DNA of 64,000 nt from Trametes villosa (lineage: Eukaryota; Basidiomycota; Agaricomycetes; Polyporales; Polyporaceae), in assembly GCA_002964805.2 (NCBI GenBank), contig PUDQ02000001.1, positions 4,798,001-4,862,000 of the forward strand, in the 5' to 3' direction. Of this stretch, positions 351-23,647 are shown piece after piece; positions within the stretch are counted from its first letter, which is position 1; the number at the start of each line of letters is the position of its first letter. Both the position numbers and the translations under genes were made by a program. The notes beneath the pieces were generated by a model, which was not told the DNA's origin, searched no databases, and saw only the letters and a program-made list of their open reading frames with translations.

Positions 351-546
351 GCCGGGGCAGCACAAGTGTGCTACCCCGGCGGTGGTAGTTATTTTACACG
401 CGACACCCCGAGCCAGCACACTTGTGCTGGCTCGGGGGTGGCGTTAAATCTGACGCCGTACACCGAGCCAGCACAAGTGTGCTGGCTCGGGGGTTGGCGT
501 TAAATCTGACGCCGTATACCGAGCCAGCACACTTGTGCTGGCTCGG
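351..546. repeat. Hairpin array, cluster 1 (4 copies)
   Basis: Four copies of a 28-bp inverted repeat start at about 352, 408, 463 and 519. Each has a 13-nt arm (CCGAGCCAGCACA in the commonest form), a 2-nt centre (CT or AG) and the complementary arm. The first copy is a GGGGC/ACCCC variant. Units recur every 55-57 bp. The spacers between the last copies are similar and contain a short GGCGT...ACGCC inverted repeat. The cluster lies downstream of the gene ending at 1062. Confidence 0.95.
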
Positions 547-1061
547 GGTGTGTCGTTCGCTGGGATGCAAAAGGGGAGTTGGGCGCATGTCAGTTCAGCT
601 TCGTTCTGCATGGTTCGCGGGTGAATCTGATCCATTGCAGAGGTGAACTAGACGACATGCATACACGTATACTGTACATTTTAGGGGAGGGTGCACCAAT
701 GACTATCAGCCGGGTAGAGTGTCTCGGGAGCTATGCCGCCGCACCCCTCTCCGAAGCCGCACCGCACGTCCTATGTCGCGGTGGGCGTCCGTGGCCTGTG
801 AGGAGAATGGACAAGCAGCGGGGAACGTTCACCCGCTACGTTATGCGGTGCGCTCGTCTTTGGGCGTCGGCGCATGCGCATTCGCGTGTGCGTTGGGCTT
901 GCTCAGTGACACGCTCGTAGAGGGGGCTGGAGAGGCGGGCGGTCAGTCAACATCGTCGACGGCATATGATGATTAGCTGCTTACCGAGTGTGAGTAGGAA
1001 GGGCGGGTCGAGTGCAGCACTCCCGCCGGGAGAGCCTCGCTGCGGACTCGTCAAGGCAGGG
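547..1061. other. Intergenic, 3' flank of the 1062-1871 gene
   Basis: No gene is supported here. An open frame at 579-920 (plus) has no homology or splice context that I can recognise. Confidence 0.4.
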
Positions 1062-1871
1062 TTAGACGTCGCTTTCGGTCGGGTCGAACGTCGGACGCGC
1101 GGCCGTCTCCTTGTCGCTGGCCTGTGAGGAGTCGCGGGGCTGTACCTTGGAGAGCAACCGCATGCGGCGCGGCCACGGGCTAGGAGGGCTGTTGTCGCGC
1201 TCTCGGAACAACCTGGTGCCCGGGTCCCTGATGCACTCGAGGAGGATGTGCGCGAGGACGAGCTTGGGCGGGTCCCAGACCTTGTACACGTACGCAGGGT
1301 CCTCGTCTCCCCTCGACAACATGTCGAGCAGGCCGAACTGCTCGTCGATGCAGCGGTTGTGGTAGCGGGGATGGAGGCCTACCGGGGGGATTTGCGAGGA
1401 TGCGCCTCCCCAATGGTGGTCCGGCACGGGGGGATACGTCGCGACAGCGAGAGCGTAGTGGATCGCGGAGACGCCTTCCGTCTCGAGCCGTTGGATCTTG
1501 TCGAGCATGTCGTCCCAGCGCCAGCTCGGGTAGTTTTTCCAGGGCGTTTCAGTGTCGATCGGGAGGTCGGGATAGTCAAAGATGTCGATGTCGACGTCGA
1601 GGTCCGGGTTGCAGCGGCGGAAGTGCAGGGCGGCGACGCTGAGGTACTCCATCGGCTCGTAGTGGAACTGCTTCCTCGTGCGCGTGATGTGGTAGAGACC
1701 GGGATGCATGTACACCTCCGGGGTCGCGCACCGTTGCTCGGAATCGTCGGCGTCGTTGAATAGCTTCGGGGAGATCTCGGTCAGGCCGTCGAGTGCTCCG
1801 CCAGGCGCGGCGGCGCTGTTCCGAGTCGTCTGCGAGTCGGGGGCGACGTCCGGAGATGAAGCGCGCTCCAT
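1062..1871 (-). CDS. Hypothetical protein with one copy of the GLxHI domain
   Basis: A single-exon gene of 269 residues, started at the ATG at 1871 because the upstream in-frame sequence is low complexity and the paralogue at 4053-5262 starts at an equivalent place. The first ~65 residues are Ser/Ala/Asp-rich. A ~155-residue domain follows, with the landmarks GLYHI, YLSVAA, HYALAVATYPPV, IPPVGLHPRYH and a final PKLVLAHILLE...DP. The same landmarks, in the same order and spacing, appear in the gene at 4053-5262 and twice in the large protein at 12016-18873. I know no named family with this pattern, so its function is unknown. The Ser/Pro-rich tail and lack of a signal peptide or membrane segment suggest an intracellular protein. 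An upstream motif at 2171-2202 is shared with other island genes. Confidence 0.8.
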   Translation of the reverse strand: MERASSPDVAPDSQTTRNSAAAPGGALDGLTEISPKLFNDADDSEQRCATPEVYMHPGLYHITRTRKQFHYEPMEYLSVAALHFRRCNPDLDVDIDIFDYPDLPIDTETPWKNYPSWRWDDMLDKIQRLETEGVSAIHYALAVATYPPVPDHHWGGASSQIPPVGLHPRYHNRCIDEQFGLLDMLSRGDEDPAYVYKVWDPPKLVLAHILLECIRDPGTRLFRERDNSPPSPWPRRMRLLSKVQPRDSSQASDKETAARPTFDPTESDV

Positions 1872-2170
1872 GGTGTGGGATGAGCGGGAAGTAGATTGTG
1901 AGCGGATCATCTGAGGGTGGAGTGGGTCAGTGCGTCGTCCGATGCGCACAACACTGCGCTCACCTGAGCCGCGGATATCGGCACTAACCACCAAGGTGAC
2001 TGTGCGGATAGAAAGCCGACGCTGTTGATGGGAACTAAGCAAACGAAAGGACGTCGAGCGTGAGGCAGACGAGCGGAGAGGACGAGAACGACTGCAAGCG
2101 GAAGAGAGCCAGACTGAGCGGGTCAAAAGATCCCGGCCGTGAGCGATTGTGGACGTGAATGAAATTGACT

Positions 2171-2202
2171 CCTTTTTGGGCCGTTGTACTGAACGCCGCG
2201 CT
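2171..2202 (-). promoter_or_regulatory. Shared upstream motif, gene 1062-1871
   Basis: Read on the minus strand, this holds AGCGCGGCGTTCAGTA followed by CAACGGCCCAAAAAGG, about 300 bp before the ATG at 1871. Near-identical strings lie ~300 bp before the ATG at 5262 and ~200 bp before the ATG at 18873. A shared regulatory or core-promoter role is inferred. Confidence 0.45.
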
Positions 2203-2462
2203 AAATGGATTCCTGATGGGTAGGTGCAACAGGCCGAGGCCGGACACTTGTGCTGATGAGATACCGCCCAGCGAGTGGATCTGTACTTTTCATTTTCTCG
2301 AGGGATTCATCTTGGAGCGGGTGTGCATCGGGTCGTAGCGCGTGCAAGAAGACTCGTTTATTGTACATCAAGATGGATACAGTATATACTACGACGGCGC
2401 GAGAGCGAGGGACGTTAGACAGCGACAACAAGAGGGTGAGAGAGAGAGACGGTCCTCAGCAC

Positions 2463-3762
2463 CTAGATGGTGGAGCGACACCTGGGACACTGGTAGTAGG
2501 CCCAATTGCCGAGGACGTGGCGAGGGAGGACGTGACCCTTTTCGTGCATCCACTGAAGGACGTTCGGCGGGGCGTCGTTGTGCGGGTCCTTGTACGCGCG
2601 AACGTCGTCGATGAGACGCTCGAAGGTGAGCGGCGGCAGGCCATGGCGGGGGACGCGCATGATGGGGGCGACGCGGAGTGCCCTCCAAAACGTGGCGAGG
2701 TCGTCCGCCGAGGGCACAAACTTGGGGGTATACGGAGGGGCGAGCGCGGGGTAGACGTCTCGAAGACACCCCTCGTGGTACCACATGCGGCACTGCGCGC
2801 ACCACCGCGTGTAATGCACGTTCGGGGAGTACATGCGCGGGGTGACGGCTGTGCATCCGACGCGGCACATGGGGATCACGAGCTGGCGGACGGACGGCCG
2901 TGAGTCTGAGGGTGCTCTCGGGAGCGCGCCGTCGAGGGCTGAGGAGTAGCTCACTCACCGTGACGAGGCGCATGAGCGCGCTTTTGGTGCAGGCAAAGGT
3001 CATGGAGGCCGGTTGATACAGCAGGCGGGGACCGTCCATCATGGGCATGGAGGGTGTCTCGGTGCGGAACAGGACGACGTCGGTGCGACACGCGGTGACG
3101 TCGTGGAGGGGGAAGAGGACGTCCTGTTCGGCGATGTCGACGAGCTGCGAGTTTCCGACGGTCGACGCGACGACGCCGCACGGCAGTCGCGCGCAAATCG
3201 TGGAGAGCTGAAGGCCGCACAGTACGGGGCGACCGCTCAAAACGACCTGTTCAGACGCGGGGGCGGAGAGTCAGCATCGCGCTGTACATTCGGCAGGGCG
3301 AGATGTGATGCACTCACGGTGCCCCGTCCGCCGAGATGCAGCCGGATTTGGAGGACGCGGACGAGGTAGAGCACGTAGTATTGGGTCGATGCGCGCCCCT
3401 CGTAGTCCTGACGGAGAACCGGGACGTTTAAGCTGCGGGCGGCGAGTCAGCGCGCGGGAGGACGGCTTAGAGAGGAACGCGACACGAACAAGTCGCCCGG
3501 CTGAATGTACACGGCCCGGCCGCCAGACTGAGGTGGATGGACTGTGGGTGAGACGCGAACGACGCGAGCGTTGGTGAGCGGGCGAACGACGCGCGCAGAC
3601 GGAAAGCGGATAGTTACACATCGTGCCAGGGATGTCATGCGCGCCTTCCCACATGCTTGCATAAGGGCGGGGGTCGATGGTTGTCGGGACGGGCACGAAG
3701 TGGGCGATTTCCGCTGGGGACGGCCGTGCAGAAGTTGTGTGGGGAGGTGCAGAATAAGACAT
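2463..3762 (-). CDS. BAH-like and split PHD-like protein (copy 1)
   Basis: Five exons are inferred: 3618-3762, 3484-3541, 3318-3432, 2959-3246 and 2463-2882, giving 341 residues. The last three junctions are good; the first two (donors GTAACT and GTCGCG) are the weakest part. Residues ~55-200 look BAH-like (VYIQPGDLF, then YYVLYLVRVLQI and NSQLVDIAEQDVLF). The last exon carries C208-x3-C212, C230-x2-C233, H238, C241 and, after 92 residues, C334-x2-C337. This is a C4HC3 ligand order like a PHD finger, but with a long insertion before the last pair. Two paralogues at 19770-21076 and 22093-23403 show the same layout. BAH and PHD modules usually read chromatin, so a nuclear chromatin role is inferred only. 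Confidence 0.7.
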
Positions 3763-3849
3763 GGTGGAGGTGATCGATTGACGACGAGCGAACGGCGCGG
3801 GGAGGTTCAACGGAGCAACGAGGCGAGCAGGCGGCGTGTGGGAATAATC

Positions 3850-3877
3850 AAGCGAGGCGTTGAGGATTCCAATTTGG
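3850..3877 (+). promoter_or_regulatory. Shared upstream motif, inverted copy
   Basis: AAGCGAGGCGTTGAG followed by GATTCCAATTTGG on the plus strand resembles the motif upstream of the 12016-18873 gene. It lies ~90-115 bp before the ATG at 3762 but in the opposite orientation to that gene. It may be coincidental. Confidence 0.25.
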
Positions 3878-4052
3878 CTTGAGTTTGCGAGAAGACTGGG
3901 AGTGTGGTAAGCGCAGGAGGGGGCGAGTTCGTCATGAGGTGCTCAGGCTGCCGTCAACCAACGCCGTTCGCAGAGGCTGATGAGGACCGGATGAGCATTG
4001 TATCGTACAGTACGGACATACAAATACACGACAAGAAAGCACGAGCGGCCAT

Positions 4053-5262
4053 TCAGAACCCTTCAACCTCGACGTCGGACGCAGACTCCTCGCCGAGTGC
4101 GGACTCCTCGCCGAGCGCGACGGTGGAGCGAGCAAGGCTGATCGACGAAGCCGCCACCGCGAGCGACGCGTTCCTCGCGCGCTTGGTCGTGCTACCCTCG
4201 TCCGCGGAGGTGGGGGAGTTCCCGCTCGCGCGACGCTTGCTGGTGGACGCGCGCGCGGAGCCGGGGTCTAGTGAGAACGGGACTGGTTAGCGTTATCGTA
4301 CGAGGTCTCGGTAGGAGAGCGTGCTTACCGGGCAGGGTGGAGGGGCTCGCCGGCCTCGGAGGAAGTGACGCATTGCGGCTGGGCGCATCATCGAGAGCAA
4401 CGGGCTCGTCGTGCGGGGGAGACTCGTCGGTGCCGTACATTCGAGCGAGCTCGAGGAGCCTGAGCTTGAGGGGATCGTCGTCTGGCAAGTCGGCGAATGG
4501 AGAGGGAGGAGAGGGCGAGGGCGTGGGCGACAGGAAGGGCCAGCGAATGTATATGCTCGGGTGCAACAACTTGTTGTGCGGGTCGTTGATCGACTGGAGG
4601 AGGAGGTGCGCGACGATGAGTTTGGGGCCGAGGCCGCGGTAGTATTCTGGCCATTCGTATCCCGGCTCCGTGAGTCTGGTCTGGACGGCGGCCCGCCAGT
4701 TGTCGAAGAACTTGTGGAACTTGGGATGGAGGCCGACTGGAATGACCCGGGCGACGCTGTCCCAATCGTCTTCGACCCGGGGATACGTCGCGAACGCCAT
4801 GGCGTAGTGCATGGCGTTGATGTTGCTGTACCGTAACCGGGGGAGCTCTCTGAAGTAGTCCGCGGCCGGCCAGAACTCCCAACCGTTCCACGGCCCGAGG
4901 GTATCGACGTCGAGGTCGGCGTGCTTGAGGATATCGATGTTGAGCGGGCCGTTCAGACGCTTGAAGTAGATAGCGGCGAGGCTCAGATACTCCCAATCTG
5001 TGGGCCTGCCGCAATACTTGAAGTTCTCGGGCAATCTGTTTGGGGTCCCAACGGCGATGTGGAAGAGCCCGTCGTATGGGAACTCAGGTGAGGGTGCCCA
5101 GCGGCTGTCCTCGCTGTCGAGGCTCTCGTCGCTGGCGTAGTCAAAGGACTGCTCCGTCCCGTCCTCGGCCGGGGGTTGATTTGCAGCGTCCCCGCCGCTG
5201 GTCGCTCCGTTCTCCGCGTCTTGCGCGCCGGGGGTAGAGGTTGGAATGTCGGGGTGATCCAT
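4053..5262 (-). CDS. Hypothetical protein with one GLxHI domain and basic tail
   Basis: Two exons, 4329-5262 and 4053-4267, give 382 residues. The intron (donor GTAAGC, acceptor CACTAG) replaces an unspliced C terminus with a tail containing SKRR and TKRAR, which look like nuclear localisation signals. After ~70 acidic and Ser-rich residues comes the shared domain: GLFHI, YLSLAA, HYAMAFATYPRV, IPVGLHPKFH and GPKLIVAHLLL...DP. The tail resembles the final exon of the 12016-18873 protein, which also has a KRAR motif in a Ser/Ala-rich exon after its domain. The gene may therefore be a duplicate of the 3' end of that larger gene. Function unknown. Confidence 0.8.
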
Positions 5263-5864
5263 CGTGTGAGTCGGGAGGCCTGCGGGGCGTCTGGCGTGGG
5301 TGGCTGCTATCGATGCCGTGTGGGTCAACGCTTGATCTGATGTCAAGGCGGGAGTAAGTACTTACCTCGAGAGGGGAACGCGCTGGAAAAAATTGGGACT
5401 CGCGGTGCCGCGGTTGTGAGGCAGCAATGCGGAGGGCGGCAGAGGGAGAGAACTAGCGGGCAGATTGAAATTTGAGCGCGCGAGAAGACGGGGCGAGGGC
5501 GAGCGAATCAAATTTGTCCGTGGTCGCGCAGAGGACGCGTGGATCGCGGCGGTGGTACGGTTACCATTTAAGGCAGTTGTACTGAACGCCACTGCCAATG
5601 TTCGTGTACGTGCGTGCGCAACGTCGGCGCACTGCGATGTACGGTCGCTGCGTATGACTGCCATTGACCATAGGGGCAAGTAACTCGTGTTGACGAGTTA
5701 GAAGCTAAGGAGTCCGTTTAACGCGATGCTCGACATATTGCGAAAATCTGATTACATGGTTGTTGCTGCGTCGATAGAAAATATACACGCGAGCACAATG
5801 GTATAGTTGCGTAGACATACACGACCGAGACAGCACATGAAGAGGGTGTCAGCATGGTAAGAGG
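5263..5864. other. Intergenic, upstream of the 4053-5262 gene
   Basis: This contains the 5' flank of the minus-strand gene ending at 5262, including the shared motif at 5564-5590. I see no other gene. Confidence 0.5.
5564..5590 (-). promoter_or_regulatory. Shared upstream motif, gene 4053-5262
   Basis: On the minus strand it reads GGCGTTCAGTACAAC followed by TGCCTTAAATGG. It lies 302 bp or more before the ATG at 5262, almost the same distance as the copy before the 1062-1871 gene. Confidence 0.45.
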
Positions 5865-6060
5865 CCGAGGCAGCACACTTGTGCTGCCTCGGGGTTGAGC
5901 GTTAGATTTGACGCCGTATGCCGGGCCAGCACAAGTGTGCTGCCTCGGGGTTGAGCGTCTGAATTTGGGCAAGATGCCGAGCCAGCACACTTGTGCTGCC
6001 TCGGGGTTGAGCGTTAGATTTGACGCCGTACACCGAGGCAGCACAAGTGTGCTGCCTCGG
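5865..6060. repeat. Hairpin array, cluster 2 (4 copies, exact 56-bp period)
   Basis: Hairpins start at 5865, 5921, 5977 and 6033, exactly 56 bp apart. Most arms here are the GAGGC/GCCTC form instead of GAGCC/GGCTC, so both arms changed together in copies 1 and 4; copies 2 and 3 have mixed arms. Spacers contain GAGCGTTAGATTTGACGCC, itself a weak inverted repeat. The array lies ~270 bp beyond the stop codon at 6332. Confidence 0.95.
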
Positions 6061-6331
6061 GGTTGCGTCCAGGATGCGTGCGGCCCAGATGAGGTTGACC
6101 GCGGTGAAGGTCGATATGTCAGGACACACGATATTCGTATTTAAAGGGCTCGACCTTCGCGCTCGTGTTAGTACTGGTTCACACTGTGGTTGCCAGGAGG
6201 CGAGGGACTTGGGAGGTGGGCGAGGGACGGACATCATGATGTTTATTATAACGAGCGTAGGATAGGATACATCGATGATGCAGCGCGGGGGACGGGCGGG
6301 ACGGTGAGGGTAAGGAAGGAAAACGTAGTGT

Positions 6332-9300
6332 CTACTGCAGGCGGCGGCGCTGGTGCGAGGGCCGGTAAAACTCCCCAGACTCCGGGTCGTTGAACACGTC
6401 GTCCTCGTCGTCCGAGATGTCGATGATGTCGAGGGTGCGCTTGGAGGACGACGCGGTGCTGCTGCTCGTGCTGGACACCGAGCGCGAGGGTGCCAGCGGA
6501 GCGCGGCGGGGGACCTCGGGACGGTCGGGGAAGTGGCCCAGCTCGACGAAGCGGTTGGCGGTCTGCGGGCCGAAGATCTTCTGCACCAAGACGTACGGCC
6601 CCGCGGGCGGATGGCTGAGCAAGTCGAGCACTTCCTTGTGCCACTTCTTGAGCTCGCTTTCGGGGAGGATGAACCAGTTGACGTTGGGCCTAGGGTGGCT
6701 CAGGACGCCGGCGCTGATCGGGTACGCGATGCCCATGCGGATGAGGTTGACCGCCCCGAGGGCCTTGGGTTCTGCGGGCAAGAAGAAAGATAGGAGGTCA
6801 GTCGCTACGCGTCGTCGGACGCGCGCTGGGGACTCACGATGCCGGTGGCTCCACGCCTGGCCAAGGTTGCCCTTCTTGTCGCCGATGTTCCGGAGGGGGG
6901 AGTCGTCGGACATCCACAGCAGGAAGACGATGGAGGTCTGCCACAGGTAGAGCGACTGGGTGCGCAGTCCCTTGATGCTGTCGCGCTCGATCCAGGGCAC
7001 GGTGCGGAAGAGGTCGATGGCGGTACGGATCTTCTGGCGGTCGGCGGCCCCGATCTTGCCGTTGAACTTGGTGAGATGGAGTGCGCTGATGGGCTCCTTG
7101 AGCTCGGCCTCCATGGCGGAGTCGAAGGCGATGCCGGGGAGGAGCTTCGACATGAGGTACGCGAGGTGAAGCGCGAGGTCGCACTTCCAGTCCAGACGCT
7201 TCTGCTGGAAGCGCTCCGTTGCCCAGGAGTAACACTCCCGCACGAACGCGTTGGTTTTGACGGGAAGGGCGTGCGCCAGCAAGCCCCAGTTGTCGGGGAG
7301 GGACGTCCGGGTGAGGTACTTGTGGTAGTCGGCGACGATGATGTCGGTGGTGTCCCACCCGCTGCTGAGGTCCTCGTTCATCTCGCGGATAGACGTCTGG
7401 GACATCTCGAACTGGAGGCGTTCGGACTGGGTGAGCGGAGCGGACTGCCCGGCGACGGGGCGAGCGGGTGGCTGCGCGCCGATCTTCGTCCACGAGGCGA
7501 TGGAAGGCTGAGAGGAGGGCAGCCGGCGCGTTCCGCTGGGCGGGAGGGCGTCGGGGAAGAACCGGATCTTGTGCTCCTTGATGATCGCGACGAAGGCCTC
7601 CTTGAAGAGGGCGGCGGCGTCGTCGTCGGTGAGCCCAGCGCGGCCTGCGCGGAGCTTGGTCTCGCTGGCGGCGATGCGCAGGGAGGGCGCGCACTTGCCC
7701 TTGTTCCAGATCGGCGGACGGAGGCCGCGGTGTCCGGTGGTGTTGGCGATGTGGTGGAGGACCTCGGCAAAGTCCTGCTCGGACATCTGCGCGCGCGCGG
7801 AAGAGGGCAGGCCGCGAACCGCGGCCATGGAGTCGGCGGTGACGGCCTGGATGAGAAGGATGCGGGTGTCGGCGTGGACGCCCCAGTGGAGGGGGTGATC
7901 GACCTTGAGCCACTTCTTCAACGCGGCCTTGCGGCTCTTCGCGGCGAGCAAGCCGTCGCCACGACCTTCGAGGACGGGCTGGATCTCGGCGGAGACCTGT
8001 GCAAGGACGAGGTCGAGGACGTCGTCGACGAACGCGCGCATGACGATCTCGGCGAGAACGCGAATCTCGCGTCCCAGCTCCGACGCGTCCGGCCAGCGGT
8101 TCTTGGACAAGGTCGCGACGGCCGTGTGCATGTAGAGGAGCGTTTCGTACGCCTGCGCGAGGGGAGAAGAGACGCGTGTGAGTGCCGCATCATCATCATG
8201 ATCGTCTCCGGGCAATCAGAGGAGGAGGAGACGGAAACTCACGAGGAAGTGCGGGCGGCCGTACGTGAGCTCCTGGGAGCGTCGAGAGAGCACGAGCGGG
8301 CGGTGCGTGACGCTATCCGTCGGCCACTTGCGCATGTTGATGAAGGGGGTGGAGCGGTACGACCCGCCGAGGAAGAAGACGTCCTTCCACAGGACGGGGA
8401 ACCCGGTGTCTTGGATGCCGCGGAGGGCCCAGATGTCGGTCATGACCTTGCGGGGGAGGACCTTCGCTGCGCCGGTGTAGTTGTAGTTGAGGAGGCGTTC
8501 GAAAAGGCTGATCGCCTCGACGTAGATGGGGTTCGGCTTGCGGGGGACGGCGGGGACTCCGGGGGGGAGGGCGTTCGCGACCAAGGCGTTGTTGTGCTCG
8601 ATGACCGGGCGGATGTGGCTCGACCAGATCCTCTCCATGGCGGACGCGACGAGGTAGCCGCACCAGACGTAGATGTACGGGAAGCACTGCGGATATAACA
8701 AAAGGGAAAGCGCGCGAGGTCAGCAAAGGTCGAAGGTACGCGCGCAAGACGGCGGAAGGTAGCTCGTGCTCACCTGGCCGGTGAGGAGGACGCAGACGCG
8801 CTTGAACTCGTCGAACCAGTCCGACTGGCGGCAGATGCTGAGGTACTGCATGACGAACTCGCGGTAGATGGCGTCGCCGTTGCGGAATTCTTCGCGGAGG
8901 TGGGTGAAGTCGACGAGGAAGTTGTTCTCCAGGCGAAGACAGTTGTCGTCCGCGAGGAGCAGCTGATTGGCGAGAGTCTTGTGGGGGTAGTTGTAGCTGA
9001 CCTTGTCGAAGAGGGCGTCGGCGGTCTCACGAGGCTTGGTGTCGGTGGTCCATGGCCCTGCGGCGGCGGCGGTGAGCATGCCGTTCTGAGCGAGGTGGGT
9101 GCGGGAGCTGAAGCGCATGCTGTGGGCGACGGTATTGTAGCATTGCGAATTGAGGGGGACGATGGCAGGAACTCCCGAGTCTGGAATGGAGAGGGCGTCG
9201 GAGAGCTTGCGGATGTGGGGGAGCATGGGCTGCATGACGCCGTCGGCCTGCCACTGCCCGATGTTCTTGGAGAAGAAGTGGGGGTAGCAGGTGTAAGAGA

Positions 9301-12015: not shown

Positions 12016-15000
12016 CTACATGGTGAACTTAGTCATGCGCTGCTGCATGACGCGCGACGCCTCCGCCTTCTCCGCCGCCTGCTCCTCCGTGACCGGGAGC
12101 GCGAAAAGGGGAGCCCCAGCCTTCCCCTTGCCCTTCGAGCCCGCGGCGCCGGTGGACGCAGCGCGAGTCGACGACGAGGGTCCGGCGGCGGCGCTCTTCG
12201 ACGATCTGGCCACCGCGCCGGTGGACGCCGCGCGAGTCGACGACGACGCGCTGGCCGCCGCAGTCGACTCGCCCCTGGCGCGCTTGGACGCCGGCTCCTC
12301 GTCGGGGACGGGTGGCGAGGCCCTCCGCTTCTGCGCGGCAGCCGCGAGCGCGACGGCCTTCATCTTGTCAACCAAGATCCCGTCCGCCGTCTTCATCATG
12401 GGGACGTGCTTGGTCCGGCTCTCTGGTACAACGGCGGAAAGAGCGTGTTAGTTATCAAATGGAGGAGAAAATGATGAATCAAAGTTAGGCGGACTCACTC
12501 GACTTGAACGCGCCCGCCCGCAACGGCACAGACAAGACCTGCGAGGCGTCGGGCGTCGCAGGCACCAGTACGCGGCCGCCCGGCTGGTCGACGTCCATGT
12601 TGGACCGGTCTTCAGGCGGCGGAGGAGGGGGCTGCTCCCCTTCGTCGAGGAGGCAGCGCGGGTCCAAGATCGCGTCGTATAGGACGCGACCGGCGATGAC
12701 CTTGGGGCCTTCCCACTTGATCTCCTCTGGCGACTTCGCTGCGAGCGTCTTCTTCAGCCGGCGGTAGTAGTGAGGGTGATACTGGGGGAGGAGGCCCGCC
12801 GGCGGGAGCGCGATCACCTCTTCGATGGTGTCTTCGACGTCCGGATAGGTCGCCATCGCGAGCGCGTAGTCGACCGCGCCGGTGCACATCTCTTCCAGGG
12901 CGTTGAGGGACTCCATGACCGAGTCGTCGTCCAGATCTTCGAATCCGGTCCAGATCTGGGTGCCGTGGATGTCTGCGAGGTTCTGCAGATCGCCTTCTGT
13001 ATCGGTCAGCATGGCGGCGACCTCGCACGCGCCGACACTGAGCTTCTCGAGGTGTCCGCCGTCGAGATCCTGGAGGCGGCGGCGGATGTGGTAGACTCCA
13101 GGCGACAGCTTGGATGCTTTGGCCGGCGACGAGGCGTCCGCGTCCGCGTCCTCCGCGTCCATGTCCTCCGTGTCCGCGTCGTTGGCAGCGGCCGTGTCGG
13201 TGGGCGCGATCTCCGTCTCCGGGGCGAGTCCGTCCACCTGCATGTCCGTCGTCTCGTCAGGCATCGGGGTGAGCGCCGACTGCGAACGGCTGCCCGGGGG
13301 CGCGGACTCGCGGGGTTCCGATTGGCGAGGCTCTGAGCCGGGAGGGTGGGACTTCACAGAGCGCGCCGGGGACGACTCACGCGACGTTGGCGTCGACGAA
13401 ACGTCGGACATGGGCTCAGGCGACTTCTGGCCGGGCAGCAAGAGTGAGCGCGGGTTCGTGATCGCCTCAAGGAGGAGCTCAGCGCCGACGGTCTTGGCCG
13501 ATTTGCCCCTGTGGTCCAGCTTGAGGTGTTCCTCCAGGTTCTGGCGGAACAGGGCGTGGTATTCAGGCAGCAGGCCGGCAGGGGGGAGTTCGAGGATCGC
13601 CTTGGGACCCGTCTTGACCAAAGGGCAGCTGGCGTACGCCATGGCGTAACAGACGGCGTATTCTTCGGGGTTCGCTTCCGCGTTGGAGGCTTTGGTGAGC
13701 TCATCGAACACGTCCTCGACCGTGAGTTCCTCGTAGCTCAGCCAAATTATCCCTCCGTTCTTCTTTGCGAGACTCGCGAGGTTGACGGGGAGGACGATAT
13801 TGAGTTCGTCGATCTCCAGAACACGATGGGCGGCGACGGTGAGGAGCTCGATCATGCTGAGGGTGACGCTGGTGGGGCGATAGCGGTGGATGTGGTGGAG
13901 GCCAGAGAAGTCCTCGATGAGCTCCTCCTGCTCCTCCTCGGCGACCGGCTGAGTGGCCACGAGAGCGTCCTCGACCGGCTGCGTGCCCTCCGGAGCGTCC
14001 TCGTCGGCGTCGTCGACCGACTGCGTCGCCGCGGGGGCATCCTCGTCGGCGTCGTCGACCGACTGCGTCGCCGCGGGCGCGTCCTCGTCCGGCTGCGAGG
14101 CGTCGGCGGTGTCTTGGTCGACTTGCATGGCGTCGGCGGCGTCGTCGACAGGCTGGGTGGGCTCGAGATTGTCCTCGTCCGCTTCGGCGTCGGGGTCCTC
14201 GCCTGTGACCTGCGCGGTGTCCTCCGTCATCGCCGTGTCGTCCTCCGCCTGCTTTTGGCTGGCGTCGAGAGGGACCAGAACGGCGTCGTCGTCCGCCTCG
14301 CCGTCCGCATCTTCCGAGCCCCCGCCCGGCGAGTCCGCGCGCTCCTTCTGCTTGCGCGTCGACGCGCGAGTGACCGGCGACGTCGTGGTCTTGTCCTCCA
14401 TGACCTCGTCCTCGCTCTCGGTGGAGTAGTCGTCGTCGTCGTCCCCGACGATGTTCTTGAAGAAGTCGGCGGTGTGGTTGGATTGCGCCTTGTTCTGCGC
14501 TGCGTCCTCCTCGTCCTCGCCTTCTTCGCCCTCGTTGAACACGAAGTCCGCCACGTCTTGCGGCAGGATCGACGCCAGGTCCGGCACCTCGACCGTCGGG
14601 TCGATCTTGTTCTTCTCCACGAGCCGCTGACGGTGCGCGTGCCGCTTCAGCGCGAACTTGGTGTACGCCTCCTCGCCGTACTGCTGGAACTCGTCCTCGT
14701 TTGCGTAGGAGTGTTCGTCGGGGGCGTGCCTGAGTGCGGTCGAGGTGAGGAGGCGCAGGGTGTCCGTCTGATGGATGTACGGCTCCGTGTCCCCGTACCG
14801 CTGGCGATACTCGAGGCGGTTCGCGTTCTTCGTCATGGCCTGTAGGACGCGTAGTTAGCGATCGCACAATACAAGGATTTTGAAACGCAAACACGTACCG
14901 TGATGAGCTGGTCGAGGGCCTGCGAGACCTCGCTGTTGACCAGCGGCAGCTTCCCTTTGACGGCCGCACACGACGTGCTCTTCCTCACCATGTTCATGAC

Positions 15001-18000
15001 GTTGACCGCCTCCTGGGTGTACTGGTCGAACCGCTGATTCTTGAGGCGTCGATCGTGGAGCGTGAGCTTGTGGTCGACTTCCTTCACCGCCTGGGTCCCC
15101 AACGAGATCTTGATCGTCGAGACGATCTGCTGGTCCCATTGCGGACGCTCGGGGTCGGGCCTCGTCGGAGAGCTCTGACCGGGTCCGGGGCTCCAGTGCT
15201 CCTTGCAGAACGCGAGGAAGTCGTCGCGGACCTTGATCCCGTACTCGGTCCCGAGCATGTGCTTCGTGTACCGCTTGTAGATGGCGATGGCGATCTGCGC
15301 GTGGAAGATCAAGCCCGCGAAGTTCGGACCGCGGTTGTGGCTGTCGACCCGACGCCACTCGAGCACGTTGCAAGTGAGCATCTTCAAACAGTCGTACTTG
15401 TCGACGAGGGACTGCGCCAAGGGGGCGGTGACCATCCGACGAGGACGGGTCGTGACGGTCTTCACGAGTTGGAGCTTCTTCTCCTGCGCCTCCGTCGGTA
15501 CGGCTTTGACGAGATGTGCTTGAAGCGTGTTGACGACCTCGTTGTCCTGCGGATGCCAGCCCTCATGGGACGCGTACACGTCGATCCAGTCCTGCGAGAG
15601 CTTCCTCCACTCGTCCTCTTTGTAGTGGATGGCGGCGGATGCGGCTTCTCTGAGCGCGAAGATGGAGAGGTTGTAGAACCGCGTCGCCTCGAGCGTGATG
15701 AAGGGCTGCATCTCCAAGTCGACCTCTTGCAGGTCGGTGAGATGGTTGAAGATCCACTGCCAGAGCTGCAACGAAGTCAACGTAAGTAATCCAATAGAAC
15801 AAATGAAACCGGACTAGACGTAGAAATGCACGACGTACGTGGAGGACGGCGAGGGGCTTGGGCCCGCCCGTGAGCACCGTGTCAGAGAACCACGCCTGCA
15901 TGTGAGACGTGTGGTCCCAGATGTCCGTGAGGCCAACGTGGATGCTGCGGTCCACGAGAGGGTCCAAGATGCGGCTTATCTGAAATGAACGACGAGTCAG
16001 CGTAAGAATAGACAGAATGTTGATACGAATGACGAACGCACATCCCGAGCCAGCACAAGTGTGCTGGCTCGGGGTCTGTCCCTCGACGAGACGCTGGAGG
16101 CCGAGCCAGCACACTTGTGCTGGCTCGGGGTGTCGTGTCTACGAGACCTGCAAGGCCGAGCCAGCACAAGTGTGCTGGCTCGGGGTCTGTCCCTCGACGA
16201 GAGACCTGTGCTGGCTCGGGGTCTGCCCATCGAGGCCGAGCCAGCACAAGTGTGCTGGCTCGGGGGTAGACCAGTGTTCAGACGCTCAACACCGAGCCAG
16301 CACAAGTGTGCTGGCTCGGGGTGTCGTGTCTACGGGACCTGCAAGGCCGAGCCAGCACAAGTGTGCTGGCTCAGGGGTAGACCCGTGTTCAGACGCTCAA
16401 CCCCGGGCCAGCACACTTGTGCTGGCTCGGGGTCGCGCTCGCGAGACATGAAGTCAAACGTGAAATGAAAAGAAACTCTACTCACATACTGTATCCCGAA
16501 GGACGTCGAGTGCAGCGCCTTGTACATGCCGGTGACCATCGACTTCGTCGGGAACGGAAGGTCGATCGTCAGCCCCACCTCACGGCGGAACTGCGCCCAC
16601 TTGAACTTCGCCATGGCCGTCGTCCTGGCCAGCTCCGTCCACTCCGTTGGCGGCGAGTGCACAGGCTCGGTCCACCACTCCCTGCAGTCCGCCTCGACCT
16701 CCGCCCAGTACGCCCGCGCGCCCTTGTACCAGTGCTCGTTGTCCACCATGCCGAAGACGCTTTCGTGCGGCCGCAGGTGCTTGATGTACGCGGCGTCGAT
16801 CTTCGCGATGAGGTCGGGGTGCCAGATCTCGCGCTCCTCGATCGCCACGTCCTTGATCGTGGTCTTGTACCAGTCCTGGTACAGCTGGGCCGATTCGCCC
16901 TCGAGCGCGGGGGTCACCTCGTACTTCGCCGGGTCCCGCCACATCGCCACCATGCGCCAGAGGAACTTCCAGTTTTCGGGGAACTCCTTCGGCTTGTTCG
17001 CGTGCTTGCCCTCGATGACCGGCCACTTGATCGCGCGCGAGATGGCGAGCATCTCCTCGACGAGCATCTGAAAGACGGCGCTCCACATCTAAGTAACAAA
17101 TGAGCGCGTCAGTAGGGCTAGGATGCGTCGCGCGCGCCGTGCAGATAAACACTTACCCCGCCCACGACCGAGTGCGTCCGCGGGTGCCGGATGTTCTTCA
17201 CTTCGATCTGCTTGAGCAGCATCCGCTCGTTCAGCTCCTTGCACCGCAGCGTCTGCCCGTCGCCGCCGAAGCTGAGCTTGTAGACGACTGTGAGGAACTC
17301 GAACACGCGCGCGGACGCGAACAGCGCTCCCCAGCCCTGCTTCTGCAGGATGTCGCCCACGATCGGCTTGACGATCTTCATGTTCCATTCGGCGCTGCCG
17401 ATCTCGATGGGCCTGTTCGCGGCCGCGCGCTTGTCGAGCTCCTGCTTGCACAAGAAGTGCAGCGACTGGATGCGCTCTTCGCTCGTCGCGACGTACGTCT
17501 TCGTGACGTCGTTGCTCGCGAGGTACATCAAGCAAGCCTTGTTCTTGCCGATCTTCGCTGTAAAACTCGTCAGTACCACGGCGCGTATGCACTTCGCCCA
17601 CCCGCGCGCGCACTTACTCTCGTCGTACACGGCCACCGCCCATTCCACCGCGTGCGCCTGCACGTTCTCGATGTTCTGCTGGAGCGTCTTGAGCTCGCCC
17701 AGCGCGTACGCCTTCTGCTCCTCGTCGCGGTTCGCGTTCGTCAGCTTCTCGATCATCTCGAGCGTCATCGTGTGGTCCTCGGTCAGACCGCGCGCCCGCG
17801 CCCGCAACGCCGCCGTCCGATGCTGTCCGCTCAGGAGTTGGAACCACTGCCCCTTCGCGCACTCATTGAACTGCAGCCGCGGGCCGTCCAAGGTGTCGAG
17901 TACGCGCTCTTGCAGCGTCTCCAGGTTGATGTACTTGGGGTTCGCCAGCATGCCGAACGGCGAGATCCACGGCCTGACCGCGGACTCGCTGAACGACTTC

Positions 18001-18873
18001 ATCAAGCCGGTGACCTTCGTCGGGTCCTTCCCGCGCTTGTTGACGTCGCGGAAGCTGAAGTTCACGAACTGGTTCTCCACCAGCGAGAGGTACGCGAACC
18101 CCATGAACGCCTCGTGCGCCGCGCGCGACTGCGCGTCCACGTTGGACAGCGTGTGGGCCTCCGTGACCACCGTCGCCTTCAGCTTCGGCGCCATCTCGCG
18201 CGCGCTGACTCCCTTGGGGGGAGCAGGCTCGCCCTTGGCGCGCTTCCGCCCGCGCGGCTTCTGTAGAGCAAAGTCTCCGTCAGCAAACGCGCGCGCGCCG
18301 ACAACGCGGGACTTACCTCGTCCCCGCTCTCCGCGTCGTCCTCCGCGCTCTCTTCCACCTTCGCCTTCGCCTTGCCCTTGCCCTTGGTCTGCCTGCCCTT
18401 CGCGGCCGTCTTCGCCTTTGGCTTCGGCTTCTCCGCGTCGGACATCTCCACGTCCTCGGTCTCTGCGGCGGGCCCGTCGGCGGTGCTGGGACCGGCCTTG
18501 TTCGCCTGCTTCGCGGGCGCGCTGGCCTTCGCGGGTGCGCTGGCCTTCGCGGGCGCGGATCCCGTCTTGACCGGAGGAGCTGCGCGCGCTGTGGGGCAAG
18601 AAGTCAGCGTGTGATGTCGCAGGATGATCGCCCGGGACCCGAGGTCGCTCACCTGCCGTTCCGGGGACCGTACCTGTCGCCTGGGACGCCCCCTCCGATT
18701 TCGAAGTCGAGGGATCGACGGCCGCCTCATTCGGGTCTTTTGCCTAAATGTTTAATCGCGTCAGTGCTTAATCAGATGCGCGTCCATACGGTGGCGTTTA
18801 CCTGCTTCCTCGCGACCGGACGCGGCCGTGGGGGTCCGTCACCCTTGTTCTCTGCCGCTGCGGGGGGTGCCAT
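12016..18873 (-). CDS. Giant protein: ParB/Srx-like region plus two GLxHI domains
   Basis: Ten exons are inferred: 18802-18873, 18674-18743, 18317-18588, 17618-18260, 17157-17557, 16486-17088, 15839-15979, 14899-15765, 12499-14839 and 12016-12422. All are in frame, giving 1,938 residues. Residues 1-160 are Ala/Lys-rich with an acidic patch and a basic KPRGRKRAK stretch. About 195-320 resembles the ParB/sulfiredoxin fold: a strand, a helix ending SESAVRPW, then WFQLLSGQHRTAALRAR with the G-x-H-R signature (282-286). A helical, Trp-rich middle of unknown type follows. Around 1,150-1,330 the chain is very acidic with imperfect DEDAPAATQSVDDA repeats. Two GLxHI domains follow at ~1,335-1,485 and ~1,600-1,755. 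The last exon has a KRAR-type signal and Ser/Ala runs. Probably nuclear. The ParB-like call is by eye, and the domain could bind or cleave DNA or do neither. The intron at 15980-16485 is packed with hairpin repeats. Confidence 0.8.
16045..16430. repeat. Hairpin array, cluster 4 (7 copies plus a half copy, inside an intron)
   Basis: Full hairpins start at 16045, 16101, 16156, 16236, 16292, 16347 and 16403, spaced 55-56 bp apart except for an 80-bp step. That step contains only a right half (TGTGCTGGCTCGG at about 16208-16220), as if one unit were partly deleted. The whole array lies in the 506-nt intron between exons 6 and 7 of the giant gene. The copy at 16347 has an arm mutation (CTCAGG). 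Confidence 0.95.
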
Positions 18874-19307
18874 GGGTCGACGAACGCTGCAAGCGAGTGA
18901 TTGAGAAGTGAGGTCGAGGCGTTGCCTGAGAAGTCTGAGCGAAGCCTGAGAGCGAGAGAAGCTGACAGAATGCAAAGGGAAGACGCGCTGGCAAGACGCG
19001 CGGCTCCGCGCCCTGGGCGCTCGTCCCACGTTCTTTTCCCACGTGCCGCACAGCGGCCGTTTTGGGAAGTGCTACTCAACGCCGCGCTTATTTCGCGCCC
19101 TTCGCGCATTCTTCAGTCCTCCTGAACCCTCGTATATTCGCCACTGCTCCGCCCCTCCCCCAGAAAAATCGATGGTCTCGAACACATGTACCTTACGCTC
19201 CATCCCTGCAAAATAAATCACTGTACACCTCCGCGCAATCCCACTACCGACCGCCCTCTCTCCACAACCAAAACACCATCCACGCCCTCCTCTGCGCAGG
19301 CTCAACA
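18874..19307. other. Divergent promoter region
   Basis: This is the 5' flank of the minus-strand giant gene. It includes the shared motif at 19057-19090 and, further right, an AT-richer stretch leading to a single hairpin copy. No gene is supported. Confidence 0.5.
19057..19090 (-). promoter_or_regulatory. Shared upstream motif, giant gene
   Basis: Minus-strand AAGCGCGGCGTTGAGTA, then GCACTTCCCAAAACGG, ~185-217 bp before the ATG at 18873. It matches the motif upstream of the 1062-1871 gene at both the GCGGCGTT and CCCAAAA parts. Confidence 0.45.
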
Positions 19308-19335
19308 CCGAGCCAGCACAAGTGTGCTGCCTCGG
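19308..19335. repeat. Single hairpin repeat copy
   Basis: One isolated 28-bp copy with mixed arms (GAGCC on the left, GCCTC on the right), between the divergent genes at 18873 and 19770. Confidence 0.9.
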
Positions 19336-19769
19336 CATATGGCCTCCAGAATGTGCCACTCACCGGGGCTTTTTGTGTTGCAATACCGGTGCGTCGCGCT
19401 CGCGCTCGCTAGCCTCGATGAGCCTTAGACTAACACCTCAAGTATGCTCCAATGAGCGAGGTTGCTCGTGTTCAGTACGTTCAATATACATTACTACATG
19501 CTTGACTGAATTCCTATACCGCTCCGGTGATCTTGTGCAGTGTACGAACGGATATCCACGTTCCAAGCATCGCTCGAGCATGCCTGCACTGGATCCGTCT
19601 CCCCACATCACCACACCTTCCAGGACACTCGGGTACCTCGCTCCATAAGGGATCAGCTATGCCGTATATGTACGTACACTCAGCCGTGCCCACGCTTCGC
19701 TTCCCACACCTGACCGCCCTATTTCCCCGCATCCCGCTCAACTTTATTTTTTCCTCCTCCTCCTCTGCC
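19336..19769. other. 5' flank of the 19770-21076 gene
   Basis: No gene was seen. A segment around 19650-19685 (AGCTATGCCGTATATGTACG) resembles one upstream of the 22093-23403 paralogue at about 21970-22000, so the duplication included the promoter. Confidence 0.4.
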
Positions 19770-21076
19770 ATGCATGATCAGCGCTTCCCCGCCCTCTCTC
19801 CCAGTGCCCCGGTGTCCCGCCTCACCTCCATAGGCGTCATTCCCCGCGCATCGCCTCCGCCCTGCCACCCACCGCTCTTTTCCGTCAACAACGCGCAGGA
19901 GTACGTCCCGACGGTGCAGTACACCCGCCCCGGTCTCCCGCTCACCTCGGCCCCCGGTATGTTCCCATCTCGCTTCCCCTGCCGGCCTGCCCCTGACAAC
20001 ATCATTGCGCGTCCGTTATAGCGCCGAATCTTACCGACGATCACAGGCGCATTGTCCGTCTGGGACAAGTGTGCGTCCGCTCCGCCACGCTCGGCCTGGC
20101 ACCCCGCATCTTGTGCTGACGGCTCCCCCAGCGTCATCGCGAACTCCGTTCCGTTTGTGATCGTTCGGCTCAACGTCGGGTCGCCCCCGGAGGTCGTAAG
20201 TCGCGCCACACCCGTCCTCTCCGCCCGCCGGCCCCTACGCTAACAAATCTATCGTTCGCAGTTCGTCGCCACAGTCTACCACGTCGTCCCCACCCCTCAG
20301 CTCATCTTGTTCTACCCGCCCGAGCAGCTGCCCTACGACTTCCTTTCGCGCTTCGCTCTGGGCGAACTTGTCGCCCTCGCCCCGCCCCGCCAGCTGTATA
20401 CCACCGCGTTCACCGAATCCCGCGACGTCGTCGTCTTCAACGACAGCACCATCTCCCTCCCTCCCTTCCGCGGCCAAATCCCCTTCCTCCGCTCCAACAT
20501 CTGCCTCCTCTGGAACGAGTCGCTCAGCCCCGCCGCCTTCACCATCGTCAATGTACGTTGTCGCTGTCCCCCCGCGTGCTGTCTTTACTTTGTTTTTGCT
20601 GATCGTCCCCCGTTTCATCCCCTTAGATCGGCAGGCCGTTCTGCCACGACAACTGCAAGCGTGAGGGCATCTATCGCCCCGCCGCCGACACCGCCCGATA
20701 CTGCTACCACTGCGAGAGGTGGTTCCACATCCAGTGCCTCGCCCCAGTCCCGCGCGTCGACGTCACCCGCCGCCTCATCCAGGAGCAGGGCTGGTCCCCG
20801 ACGCTGTCGCCCGGCGGCATGTTCTGGTGGAAGCTCATCACCTGCCCCATCCAGCGCGCTCCCAACATCGACGACCGCTACCGCCTCTACCCGTGGTCCT
20901 TCGAGCCCTTCCTGTGGCTCGCTCGGTTCTACCACGCGCGCGGACGTGCTCCCCCGGCCGAGGGTGTGCGCGCGTGGATGCGTCGCGTACACTACCCCCA
21001 CGTCCCCGGACCCCTCATCGAATACGCCCACGGCGCGCCGCGCTTCGTCTGCAAGGAGTGCGGCCGATGCGTGTAA
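19770..21076 (+). CDS. BAH-like and split PHD-like protein (copy 2)
   Basis: Five exons, 19770-19956, 20022-20070, 20132-20195, 20262-20552 and 20627-21076, give 346 residues. Exons 2-5 are 49, 64, 291 and 450 nt, identical to those of the neighbour at 22093-23403. A Pro-rich N-terminal ~62 residues leads into a BAH-like region (RIVRLGQV, then FVIVRLNVG and PFLRSNICLL). The last exon has C203-x3-C207, C223-x2-C226, H231, C234 and, 104 residues later, C339-x2-C342. The insertion is conserved and rich in aromatic residues (WWKLITCPIQR, FLWLARFYH), so it is a real domain element. Chromatin binding is inferred from the module types, not shown. Adjacent, same orientation, same structure: a recent tandem duplicate. 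Confidence 0.82.
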
Positions 21077-21284
21077 GTCCGACCGCAGCGCGTAAAATAT
21101 ACCATACTCTTGTACTGTACATTCGCATATAGCCGTCTTGAGTGCCCCGAATGCCCCTCCCCTGAACGCTCCTCGTACGCCCGCTGCCAAAATGTAAATA
21201 CCTGTACTAATTGCTGTCACTACGCGGACAAAACATACGGCTGAACGCAAACACAACATATGTCCTGACGCAAACCACAAGACA
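21077..21284. other. Short 3' flank
   Basis: The presumed 3' UTR and terminator region of the preceding gene, leading directly into hairpin cluster 6. No gene seen. Confidence 0.4.
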
Positions 21285-21592
21285 CCGGGCCAGCACACTT
21301 GTGCTGGCCCGGCCTTTCACCGCGGAAAAGGCGCTCAACCCCGAGGCAGCACAAGTGTGCTGGCTCGGGGTGTCTCACTCCATGAGACGCTCAACCCCGA
21401 GTCAGCACACTTGTGCTGGCTCGGGGTATCCCACTCGATGTCACGCCCAACCCCGAGTCAGCACACTTGTGCTGGCTCGGGGTATCCCACTCGATGTCAC
21501 GCCCAACCCCGAGTCAGCACACTTGTGCTGGCCCGGCCTTTCACTGTGGAAAAGACGCTCAACCCCGAGGCAGCACAAGTGTGCTGCCCCGG
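21285..21592. repeat. Hairpin array, cluster 6 (6 copies, exact 56-bp period)
   Basis: Hairpins start at 21285, 21341, 21397, 21453, 21509 and 21565, each exactly 56 bp apart. Arms include GGGCC/GGCCC, a compensated variant, and GAGTC/GGCTC, a mismatched one. The 28-bp spacers differ but several fold on themselves, for example GTCTCACTCCATGAGAC and GCCTTT...AAAAGGC. Two spacers are identical. A decayed seventh copy lies at about 21620-21645. Confidence 0.95.
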
Positions 21593-21645
21593 CCTCACGC
21601 CGTGTAATAGACACCAGACACCCAGCACTCGTGCTGTCTCGGCAT

Positions 21646-22092
21646 CAAACTGATCTCCGTACATAACACGTATCGACGCTGACTCTCAGTTACGGCTCGT
21701 GCACAATACCAGTATGTGATATTATATATTTGCACAGCACTTTCCTCAGGGTAGCAATGGACGTGTGATATGGAACTACCACACGCACCATCGTTCTCTC
21801 TCGCTCTTGCCGCTGGGCCCAGTGTCCTCAACATACCTTCCCAGTACTACAGTCCCTCATGCACCGGAATCACCATCTCCTCGCCTCCTCGCCTCCTCGC
21901 ATCCCCTTCTCCCCGATTCCCCGCTCAACCACCCCCTCCCCGAGCGCCCACACCACTCCGTCCATTAGGAAGTAGCTATGCCTTAAACGTACGTCCATTC
22001 ATCCATCCCGCTCTCCCCTTCCCACACTGCTCAACTCGTTATTTTCCCTGCATCCCGCTCTTCGCTTTCTCCTTCCTGCTTATACCCCAATC
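21646..22092. other. Intergenic, 5' flank of the 22093-23403 gene
   Basis: AT-richer sequence with pyrimidine-rich tracts typical of a fungal promoter, plus the segment conserved with the 5' flank of the upstream paralogue. No gene seen. Confidence 0.4.
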
Positions 22093-23403
22093 ATGGACAA
22101 TTCACGCTGGATTCCATTGTCCACGCTCGCCCCCCCGGTCATCCCCGCCATGCCCGAGACCTTCATACCCCTCCCGTCCCTCCCATCGCCTCCCCCCGTC
22201 TTTCCGCCAGTACTCGGCATACACAGTTTGGCCGAGCAAACGGCCTCGGTGGCGGAGGACCCCCACCCCAACCGCCTCCTCGTCTCGGCTCCAGGTACGT
22301 TCTGCATCGCTTCTCGGACCGTTCTTCTGCTGATCATTTCTGTGGCCTTCTCTTATAGCGCCAAACCTCGCTAACACTCCCTACAAGATCGTACGCCTCG
22401 GCCAAGTGTACGTTCGCGCACCTCCGCCCGCCCGTCGCCTTCGTCGCGCTAACACCTTCCACAGCGTCTTGGTAGACGGTCTGCAGTACTTCGTCATCCG
22501 CCTCGACTTCGGATCCTCGCCCGGCGTCGTGAGTATCCCTCCCCCCGTCAGCTCCCCGCGCTCGCTCACCCTCCGCTTCGTCTTTCTTAGTTCCTCGCCA
22601 CGCTCTTCCGCGTCATGTTCCCCTTCCAGGCCATCCAGTACTTTCCCTGCGAGTGGCTCCCCTGGGACTTCCTCTCCCGCTACGGCATGGACGAGCTCAT
22701 TGCCGTCACCCCTCCCCGCGAAATGGAAACCACCGCCTTCACGGCCATCGAGCAGGTCCTTGTCTTCAACGACAAGACGATCTCCCTCCGCCCCTACTGG
22801 TCCCAGGTCCCCTTCCTTCGCGCCAACGTCCTGCTCTTGGTGGACGAGTACAGAAACCCCCCTGGCTGCACCATCCTGACCGTACGTCCACGTCGTCCAC
22901 GTCTCTCATTTATCATCGCCCGTGTTTGCTGACGTGCGACGCGGTTCATTCAGTACGGCGAGAAGTTCTGCCGCCGCCGCTGCATCTACCAGGGCATCTA
23001 CCGCCCCACCGCCGACAAGGTCCGCTTCTGCGGCCGCTGCAAGAGGTGGTTCCACCTCCGGTGTCTCTCTCATATCCCAGACGACGAGTTCATCCGTCGT
23101 CTCATCGAGGAGCGCGACTGGTCGCCCGGCCCCTCCATGGACGAGATGCTCTGGTGGGAGCTCATCATCTGCCCCATCCAACGTACCCCCGCCGTCGACC
23201 GCTGCGGGCGCATCTTCCCCTTCTCGCACGAGCACTTCCTGTGGCTCGCGCGGTCCTACCACGACCGTCAACGCAGCCCACCCCCGGAGGGAGTCTCCAC
23301 CTGGATGGAACGCTTGAACTTCCCCCACATTTCCATCGAGCTGCGTCGCTTTGCCCTCATGGCAGAGCGGTACTTTTGTCCGGTGTGCAAGGGATGCGTG
23401 TAG
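22093..23403 (+). CDS. BAH-like and split PHD-like protein (copy 3)
   Basis: Five exons, 22093-22294, 22359-22407, 22465-22528, 22591-22881 and 22954-23403, give 351 residues. The Pro-rich N terminus (1-67) is followed by a BAH-like region (KIVRLGQV, LQYFVIRLDFG, DKTISLRPYWSQVPFLRAN) and, in the last exon, C208-x3-C212, C228-x2-C231, H236, C239, then 104 residues, then C344-x2-C347. The insertion includes WWELIICPIQR and FLWLARSYHD, matching copy 2 closely. No signal peptide or membrane helix is present. I infer a nuclear zinc-binding protein. An alternative is that the last cysteine pair belongs to a separate small zinc site and that the first six ligands form an incomplete finger. Confidence 0.82.
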
Positions 23404-23563
23404 GGCGCGGTAGTGTTTGTATCGTACATACTCTTGTATATTTCACTACATCTTGTATATTCGGCTGCATCTTGTATCGACAATATAATAGACCTGTCGC
23501 ACGAACACCCTGTCGGAAAACACACTCGCACCACAAGCCACGCCTAAATCAGATCCGAACACA

Positions 23564-23647
23564 CCGGGCCAGCACACTTGTGCTGCCTCGGCATTGGGCG
23601 TCTTTTCGCCGGTCGGACACCGAGGCAGCACAAGTGTGCTGCCTCGG
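23564..23647. repeat. Hairpin array, cluster 7 (2 copies)
   Basis: Hairpins at 23564 and 23620, exactly 56 bp apart, lie ~160 bp beyond the stop of the 22093-23403 gene. A decayed third copy may lie near 23690. These are the last copies I can find; none was seen from 24 kb to the end of the window. Confidence 0.93.

Follow-up and report, generated by a model that had tools for sequence, protein, structure and literature searches.

Introduction

Terminons (Athena) of bdelloid rotifers are described as giant telomeric Penelope-like elements, tens of kilobases (kb) long, that carry accessory genes, have a fixed inner and a truncated outer end, contain short telomere tracts and form stacks (PMC6431247). 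In fungi, MoTeR elements are reported as telomeric retrotransposons (PMC8381367), and FoTeR elements as non-long terminal repeat (non-LTR) elements of ascomycete chromosome ends whose 3' junctions bear telomere repeats and which co-occur with telomere-linked helicases (PMC12857005). Here, we analysed a stretch of 64,000 nucleotides of Trametes villosa (the window), which lies on contig PUDQ02000001.1 (C1:4,798,001–4,862,000) of a single assembly of 46.7 Mb in 140 contigs and contains phased arrays of a 28-bp palindrome. These arrays are probably internal parts of a gene-carrying chromosome-end element, which we call A, stacked on broken or eroding chromosome ends, with the palindromes as putative sites for a dimeric protein. 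Judged by its anatomy, A appears closest to the Terminons and, after them, to MoTeR and FoTeR.

Other systems share single aspects with this locus. In Drosophila, HeT-A, TART and TAHRE attach successively to chromosome ends and erode, as we propose for A. The genome studied here differs in having TTAGGG telomere tracts, whereas Drosophila is described as a telomerase exception (PMC5537684). Subtelomeric blocks with RecQ-like helicases are reported from Agaricus bisporus var. burnettii and other fungi (PMC7473861); the likeness is a RecQ-like helicase beside repeated terminal DNA, and the difference is that the text of that paper makes no mention of palindromes.

Phased palindrome arrays in the window

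The original prediction, made from the sequence alone, described at least 28 copies of a hairpin, in six arrays plus one isolated copy. Matches to the 13-bp arm (at most two mismatches) number 60 in the window against 3.3 expected, a count reached in none of 100 shuffled sequences, and pairing of the arms recovers 28 good palindromes of 28 bp each between 352 and 23647, in the predicted layout; one degenerate palindrome lies besides at 2234–2261. From arm matches and arm pairing, and without an assigned strand, the arrays comprise four units at 352–546 (period 55–56 bp), four at 5865–6060 (56 bp), four at 10165–10358 (55–56 bp), seven at 16045–16430 (55–56 bp, with one 80-bp gap, 16156 to 16236) and six at 21285–21592 (56 bp, with a degenerate unit near 21618–21642). 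The sixth, delimited by arm pairing and copy comparison, has two units at 23564–23647 (56 bp) and is present in all ten copies of A, while the single palindrome lies at 19308–19335 and has the centre AT in the copy on contig C23. A period of exactly 56 bp had been claimed for three arrays, and we find it in those starting at 5865, 21285 and 23564; elsewhere the period does vary, but the range is 55–56 bp plus the 80-bp gap, not 54–57 bp. Both centre orientations occur as predicted, CT and AG in 14 units each. The description as a 13-bp-arm hairpin needs correction, since the units are indeed 28 bp long but the arms match over all 13 bp in only 12 of the 28.

Perfect palindromes with arms of at least 11 bp number 13 in positions 1–24300 (12 with other settings), against none in each of 20 Markov-simulated sequences. 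A chance or low-complexity origin was ruled out by the shuffles and these simulations. Of 20 pairs of adjacent units, 14 have opposite centre orientations (p = 0.058), with the pair spanning the 80-bp gap omitted from the count.

Distribution of the palindrome in the genome

A strict 24-bp core of the palindrome has nine matches in the genome, all inside the window, and a relaxed core (at most one mismatch) has 75, against six for the reversed control. All 50 places listed of these 75 fall in copies of one multicopy element, A. A dispersed repeat or miniature inverted-repeat transposable element (MITE) was rejected on this ground; the palindrome is neither scattered genome-wide without periodicity nor the terminal repeat of a known transposon. 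The original prediction was right that no obvious described repeat is involved, but the palindromes are parts of A rather than a repeat class standing on its own.

A giant-virus-like origin, suggested by the GC content, was likewise rejected: the window belongs to a 46.7-Mb genome, viral contigs contain neither relatives of two open reading frames (ORFs) nor the palindrome core, and a 316-bp array has no match in phages or plasmids. Judged by eye, the ORFs and their proteins, the base composition and the neighbouring sequence have a basidiomycete appearance.

Element A has a fixed right end and truncated left ends

In the window, A occupies positions 1–24291 by copy comparison, without an assigned strand, and this copy extends leftwards to about C1:4,795,464 (about −2537 in window coordinates), giving about 26.8 kb; A is at least 24 kb long. 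A search with the last 192 bp recovers ten genome copies at 98–100% identity, and in alignments of at least 400 bp and 88% the copies are about 97–99% identical, a divergence too small to gauge constraint. When the window is compared with the nine other loci, over alignments of at least 200 bp, the likeness of all ten copies stops at 24291–24292; the C88 alignment runs 13 bases past 24291, yet the sequences part at the same point. This fixed right, or inner, terminus (24252–24291, plus strand, from copy comparison) ends ...TTTAGRCCCTGTGTAT, and it is followed by a different flank in each of the ten copies. For the left parts of A (window 600–10100, 10400–16000 and about −2530 to −30), the assembly contains only relatives at 67–89% and the arrays, but no second copy that is close; repeats may have been collapsed during assembly here.

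No inverse of the right end occurs near the left boundary, and none of the five copies tested, those beyond the window whose left junction is readable, has a target-site duplication, the best shared words being 3–5 bases. A DNA transposon with terminal inverted repeats was rejected on these two grounds. The 3' end of a Helitron reads CTRR. A ends GTGTAT and has no Rep/helicase match in the frames scanned against Pfam (minus frames of 1–24301 completely, plus frames of 18602–24003 only), so that a Helitron was rejected as well.

The left ends of the other copies lie at different points of A. In window coordinates, the extents are 16681 (C23), 17668 (C21), 18738 (C5) and 22207 (C98) where A meets a contig end, and 19591 (C19), 22116 (C36), 22721 (C80), 22754 (C1 at 9.746 Mb) and 23317 (C88) inside contigs. 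Four of the ten copies reach a contig end on this side, and the six readable junctions show the end of a family B three times, and a C-type end, a 22-bp telomere tract and unnamed sequence once each. The family B end, ...CTGTCCCCTATAAAT, precedes A on C36, C80 and the window contig, at three different points of A, and a family C end precedes it on C1 at 9.7476 Mb. The telomere tract CCCTAACCCTAACCCTAACCCT (C88:50960–50981, interstitial) directly adjoins truncated A, and on C19 the sequence before A ends ATAACCCTAAA and recurs on C1.

Families B and C have fixed ends of their own. Each of the six copies of B is followed by a different sequence (6/6 distinct flanks), and the C-type end, a 16–20 bp palindrome followed by TTATATAGATAG and preceded by short repeats, was found 18 times in the loci examined, with 18/18 distinct flanks. 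Two such ends lie in the window, at 31724 and 32720, and more at loci L051–L054. Among the telomere tracts listed, C-type ends occur within 2 kb of the terminal tract on C3 (1905–1938) and C130 (1169–1203), and the flanks of C86 and of the interstitial tracts C44:5429–5534 and C35:8463–8586 resemble C-type surroundings by eye. Family C also has palindromes of its own, different from those of A and 35–39 bp long, in the window at 29723–29864 and 30059–30097 and at C3:258–591; most of its hairpins have GTGAC...GTCAC outer arms, and the first lies about 120 bp from the C3 telomere tract. Tandem repeats are found at 29889–30043 (40 bp, 3.9 copies) and as 11-mer and 178-bp arrays at 30275–31151.

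A fixed inner end with varying flanks, a truncated and capped outer end and the lack of target-site duplications are, taken together, what characterises elements attaching to chromosome ends. In such a scheme, A would be copied or joined by its fixed end onto an eroding chromosome end, its free end would erode in turn, and telomerase or a further element of this sort would cap the eroded end, so that stacks arise in head-to-tail order, as for Terminons or HeT-A. The polymerase would presumably be supplied in trans; none was detected in what was scanned. Going further, A may be the longest element seen of a guild (A, B and C) of end elements without a detected polymerase of their own, mobilised in trans by a Penelope-like enzyme or telomerase, in which the phased palindromes of each palindrome-bearing family would dock a protein with a role in tethering, capping or partitioning the chromosome end, although we consider this wider proposal doubtful.

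A might instead be an ordinary subtelomeric duplication, in which break-induced replication copies blocks from one chromosome end to another and no dedicated element exists. The identity of about 97–99% among the copies fits recent exchange, and the capture of subterminal sequence onto failed telomeres is reported in Pyricularia (PMC8381367). Capture through homology or microhomology, however, does not predict a single end base in 10/10 copies with ten flanks, and families B and C behave alike, with a fixed end and distinct flanks. The constant end base therefore argues against subterminal capture, the main rival for the element, and we consider a plain duplication unlikely.

Chromosomal position and junction with a helicase gene

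At its right end, A abuts a RecQ-type helicase gene (24292–25885, minus strand; Pfam and copy comparison), of the telomere-linked kind by its neighbourhood, whose C-terminus A cuts off at 24291/24292. A copy of the helicase at C1:9,741,386–9,742,756 continues past the junction, whereas the ORF in the window turns to A-derived codons after ...GAGVCFS. It follows from the truncation that the chromosome to which A attached either had an earlier break in the helicase gene or was broken there. An OrsD-like ORF, below the curated cut-off, was also observed beside the helicase, within 24292–28842.

Among the nine other copies of A, seven have a contig end within 10 kb, contig ends being not proven chromosome ends, and in six of these seven the truncated side faces the end (C1 at 9.746 Mb, C5, C21, C23, C98 and C36). 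The copies on C19 and C88 lie further in.

The palindrome as a DNA site or an RNA stem

Across the 28 units, both arms are constant at nine of their 13 positions, two more positions deviate in one unit, and two vary, namely position 4 (A or G) and position 6 (C, G or T). The arms agree at position 4 in 22 of the 28 units, against 19.7 expected under independence (p = 0.19), and at position 6 in 17, against 13.2 (p = 0.08); these p values are uncorrected for kinship among units, and the test omits the degenerate unit at 2234 and the partial units near 5825 and 21630. At position 6, C-C or G-G mismatches occur in 8/28 units. Many units are accompanied on one or both sides by an outer box, GGTTGAGCGTC or a variant of it. 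An invariant core in both half-sites, together with variable positions that pair no better than chance, favours arrays of protein sites. On these sequence features, we favour the view that each palindrome is a putative symmetric site for a dimeric DNA-binding protein, with the half-site TGTGCTGSCYCGG and often the degenerate outer box, and the phased arrays may be regulatory or chromatin-organising sites of A.

The arm statistics also appear to count, weakly, against a selected RNA stem. If the palindromes acted as RNA, the arrays would be transcribed and give 12-bp hairpins, which would serve as 3'-end marks, as protection for the transcripts or as a source for small-RNA pathways. A 308-nt array RNA is predicted to fold at −193 kcal/mol with a z-score of −15, but this score is a trivial consequence of the palindromes. 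By ORF positions, five of the seven clusters (all except those at 10165 and 19308) lie directly downstream of an ORF stop; clusters are found upstream of ORF starts too, so that placement does not tell the readings apart, and the ORFs on either side of 19308 are divergent. The lack of significant pairing at the variable positions and the mismatches at position 6 likewise count against an RNA role, as does the Rfam scan of window 1–24400 (E≤1), which detected no ribozyme and returned 16 matches, 15 of them to microRNA families and one to a small-RNA family, all below gathering scores. Taken together, we regard an RNA function as rather unlikely.

The palindromes could also derive from a very small hairpin repeat capable of spreading itself, which entered A, multiplied there and has no function for the element. 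Such a repeat would be comparable to bacterial REP/BIME clusters or to fungal mitochondrial hairpin elements. In enterobacteria, REP/BIME sequences form clusters of alternating palindromic units that are mobilised by a RAYT transposase. The likeness to them is that palindromic units of mixed orientation, separated by spacers, are clustered between genes; the differences are that A belongs to a eukaryotic nuclear genome, that the palindrome is confined to A among the places listed, and that no transposase was found in the frames scanned. The clusters of one to seven units are mostly outside the longer ORFs (a minus-strand ORF at 16330–17088 enters the fourth array, and a plus-strand ORF at 10148–11041 crosses the third), and this placement agrees with an invading repeat, as do the tendency of centres to alternate and, in the stretches read, the absence of the core in the vicinity of relatives of A genes. 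A mobile hairpin should, however, spread further than A, outside which no copy was found among the places listed, and the core, which is invariant in both half-sites even though the arrays have diverged, suggests constraint. We consider a functionless repeat quite improbable.

Several observations weigh against our reading of A as a chromosome-end element with protein-binding sites. For the sites, no binding protein was identified, the half-site p values are near significance and the units within an array are related to one another. Stretches near diverged relatives of A genes (on C39, C33 and C1 at 4.743 Mb) lack a palindrome of this core; they are possibly not orthologous to the arrays, and two of them each have one unrelated short or imperfect palindrome. 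For the element, the frames scanned in A revealed no reverse transcriptase, transposase or recombinase, no telomere repeats stand at the start of its right flanks (0/10), unlike in Terminons and FoTeRs, and a telomere tract adjoins only one of the six readable left junctions. The copy on C80 faces away from the nearest contig end, and the orientation of the others is confounded because the contigs C5, C21, C23 and C98 break inside A. The window copy itself lies in the interior of its contig, at 4.8 Mb of 9.75 Mb, with no Ns in the part read.

Comparison with known chromosome-end elements

A resembles the Terminons in its size, its accessory genes, its fixed inner end and its truncated outer end, which is capped by a telomere tract (once) or by element ends (four times). 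It also resembles them in head-to-tail stacking, with B ends on A at three points and a C-type end on truncated A. In contrast to Terminons, A has no detected reverse transcriptase or hammerhead and no telomere repeats at the fixed end, and it carries arrays of a single palindrome. With MoTeR and FoTeR, A shares a probable location at fungal chromosome ends, truncation and telomere-linked helicase neighbours; it differs in having no detected reverse transcriptase and no telomere repeats at the 3' junction. Since reverse transcriptase, hammerhead and fixed-end telomere repeats were not detected, A is, on present evidence, not a member of the Terminons or of MoTeR/FoTeR. Judged by titles and abstract openings, none of the papers listed in searches on telomeric elements, subtelomeres, palindromes and basidiomycetes describes palindrome arrays of this kind.

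If our reading of A is correct, giant elements that carry genes and form stacks at chromosome ends would not be confined to rotifers, and would shape the subtelomeres of a basidiomycete-like genome with TTAGGG telomeres, near RecQ-type helicase genes. The arrays, with one symmetric core in six phased arrays, would then offer a testable cis-sequence for finding the protein that reads such elements, and the fixed-end junctions would open a way to study the copying onto broken ends of an element in which no polymerase was detected.

Genes of element A

Within A, Pfam gives nothing convincing beyond a PHD-like zinc finger. This finger is found in two plus-strand paralogues, at 20627–21076 (PF00628, E = 0.004, below the curated cut-off) and 22933–23403 (PF00628, E = 4e-5), to which a minus-strand ORF at 2465–2953 is related by sequence comparison. 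Three minus-strand ORFs, identified from the ORF list, Pfam and sequence comparison, belong together and match no Pfam family: those at 1062–1910 and 4192–5262 share a repeated domain, and that at 12485–14836 contains two stretches of it. A 599-aa ORF at 6332–8131 (minus strand; ORF list, Pfam and viral-contig search) has no known family and no relative in viral contigs. A 358-aa ORF at 17118–18194 (minus strand; ORF list and Pfam) shows a ParB-like GQHR motif by eye only and has no family; a ParB/parS-like pair was considered but found no support, as this ORF has no Pfam family, none of 2474 candidates is a homologue at E≤0.001, and the fold model from its single sequence (mean pLDDT 34.7) is unusable.

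Of 204 genome candidates for RVT_1, 150 were scored; none of these lies in the window, where the Pfam model may miss a divergent reverse transcriptase, and one, on C80, is separated from a copy of A by about 6 kb.

A further PHD-like relative lies just left of the window, and a minus-strand ORF cluster related to the PHD-like ORFs of A was observed at loci L034 and L033 (C1:4,778,001–4,798,000). The wider region C1:4,741,000–4,830,000 is a stack of chromosome-end-type elements in the middle of the contig, which may reflect a misjoin or an old chromosome fusion.

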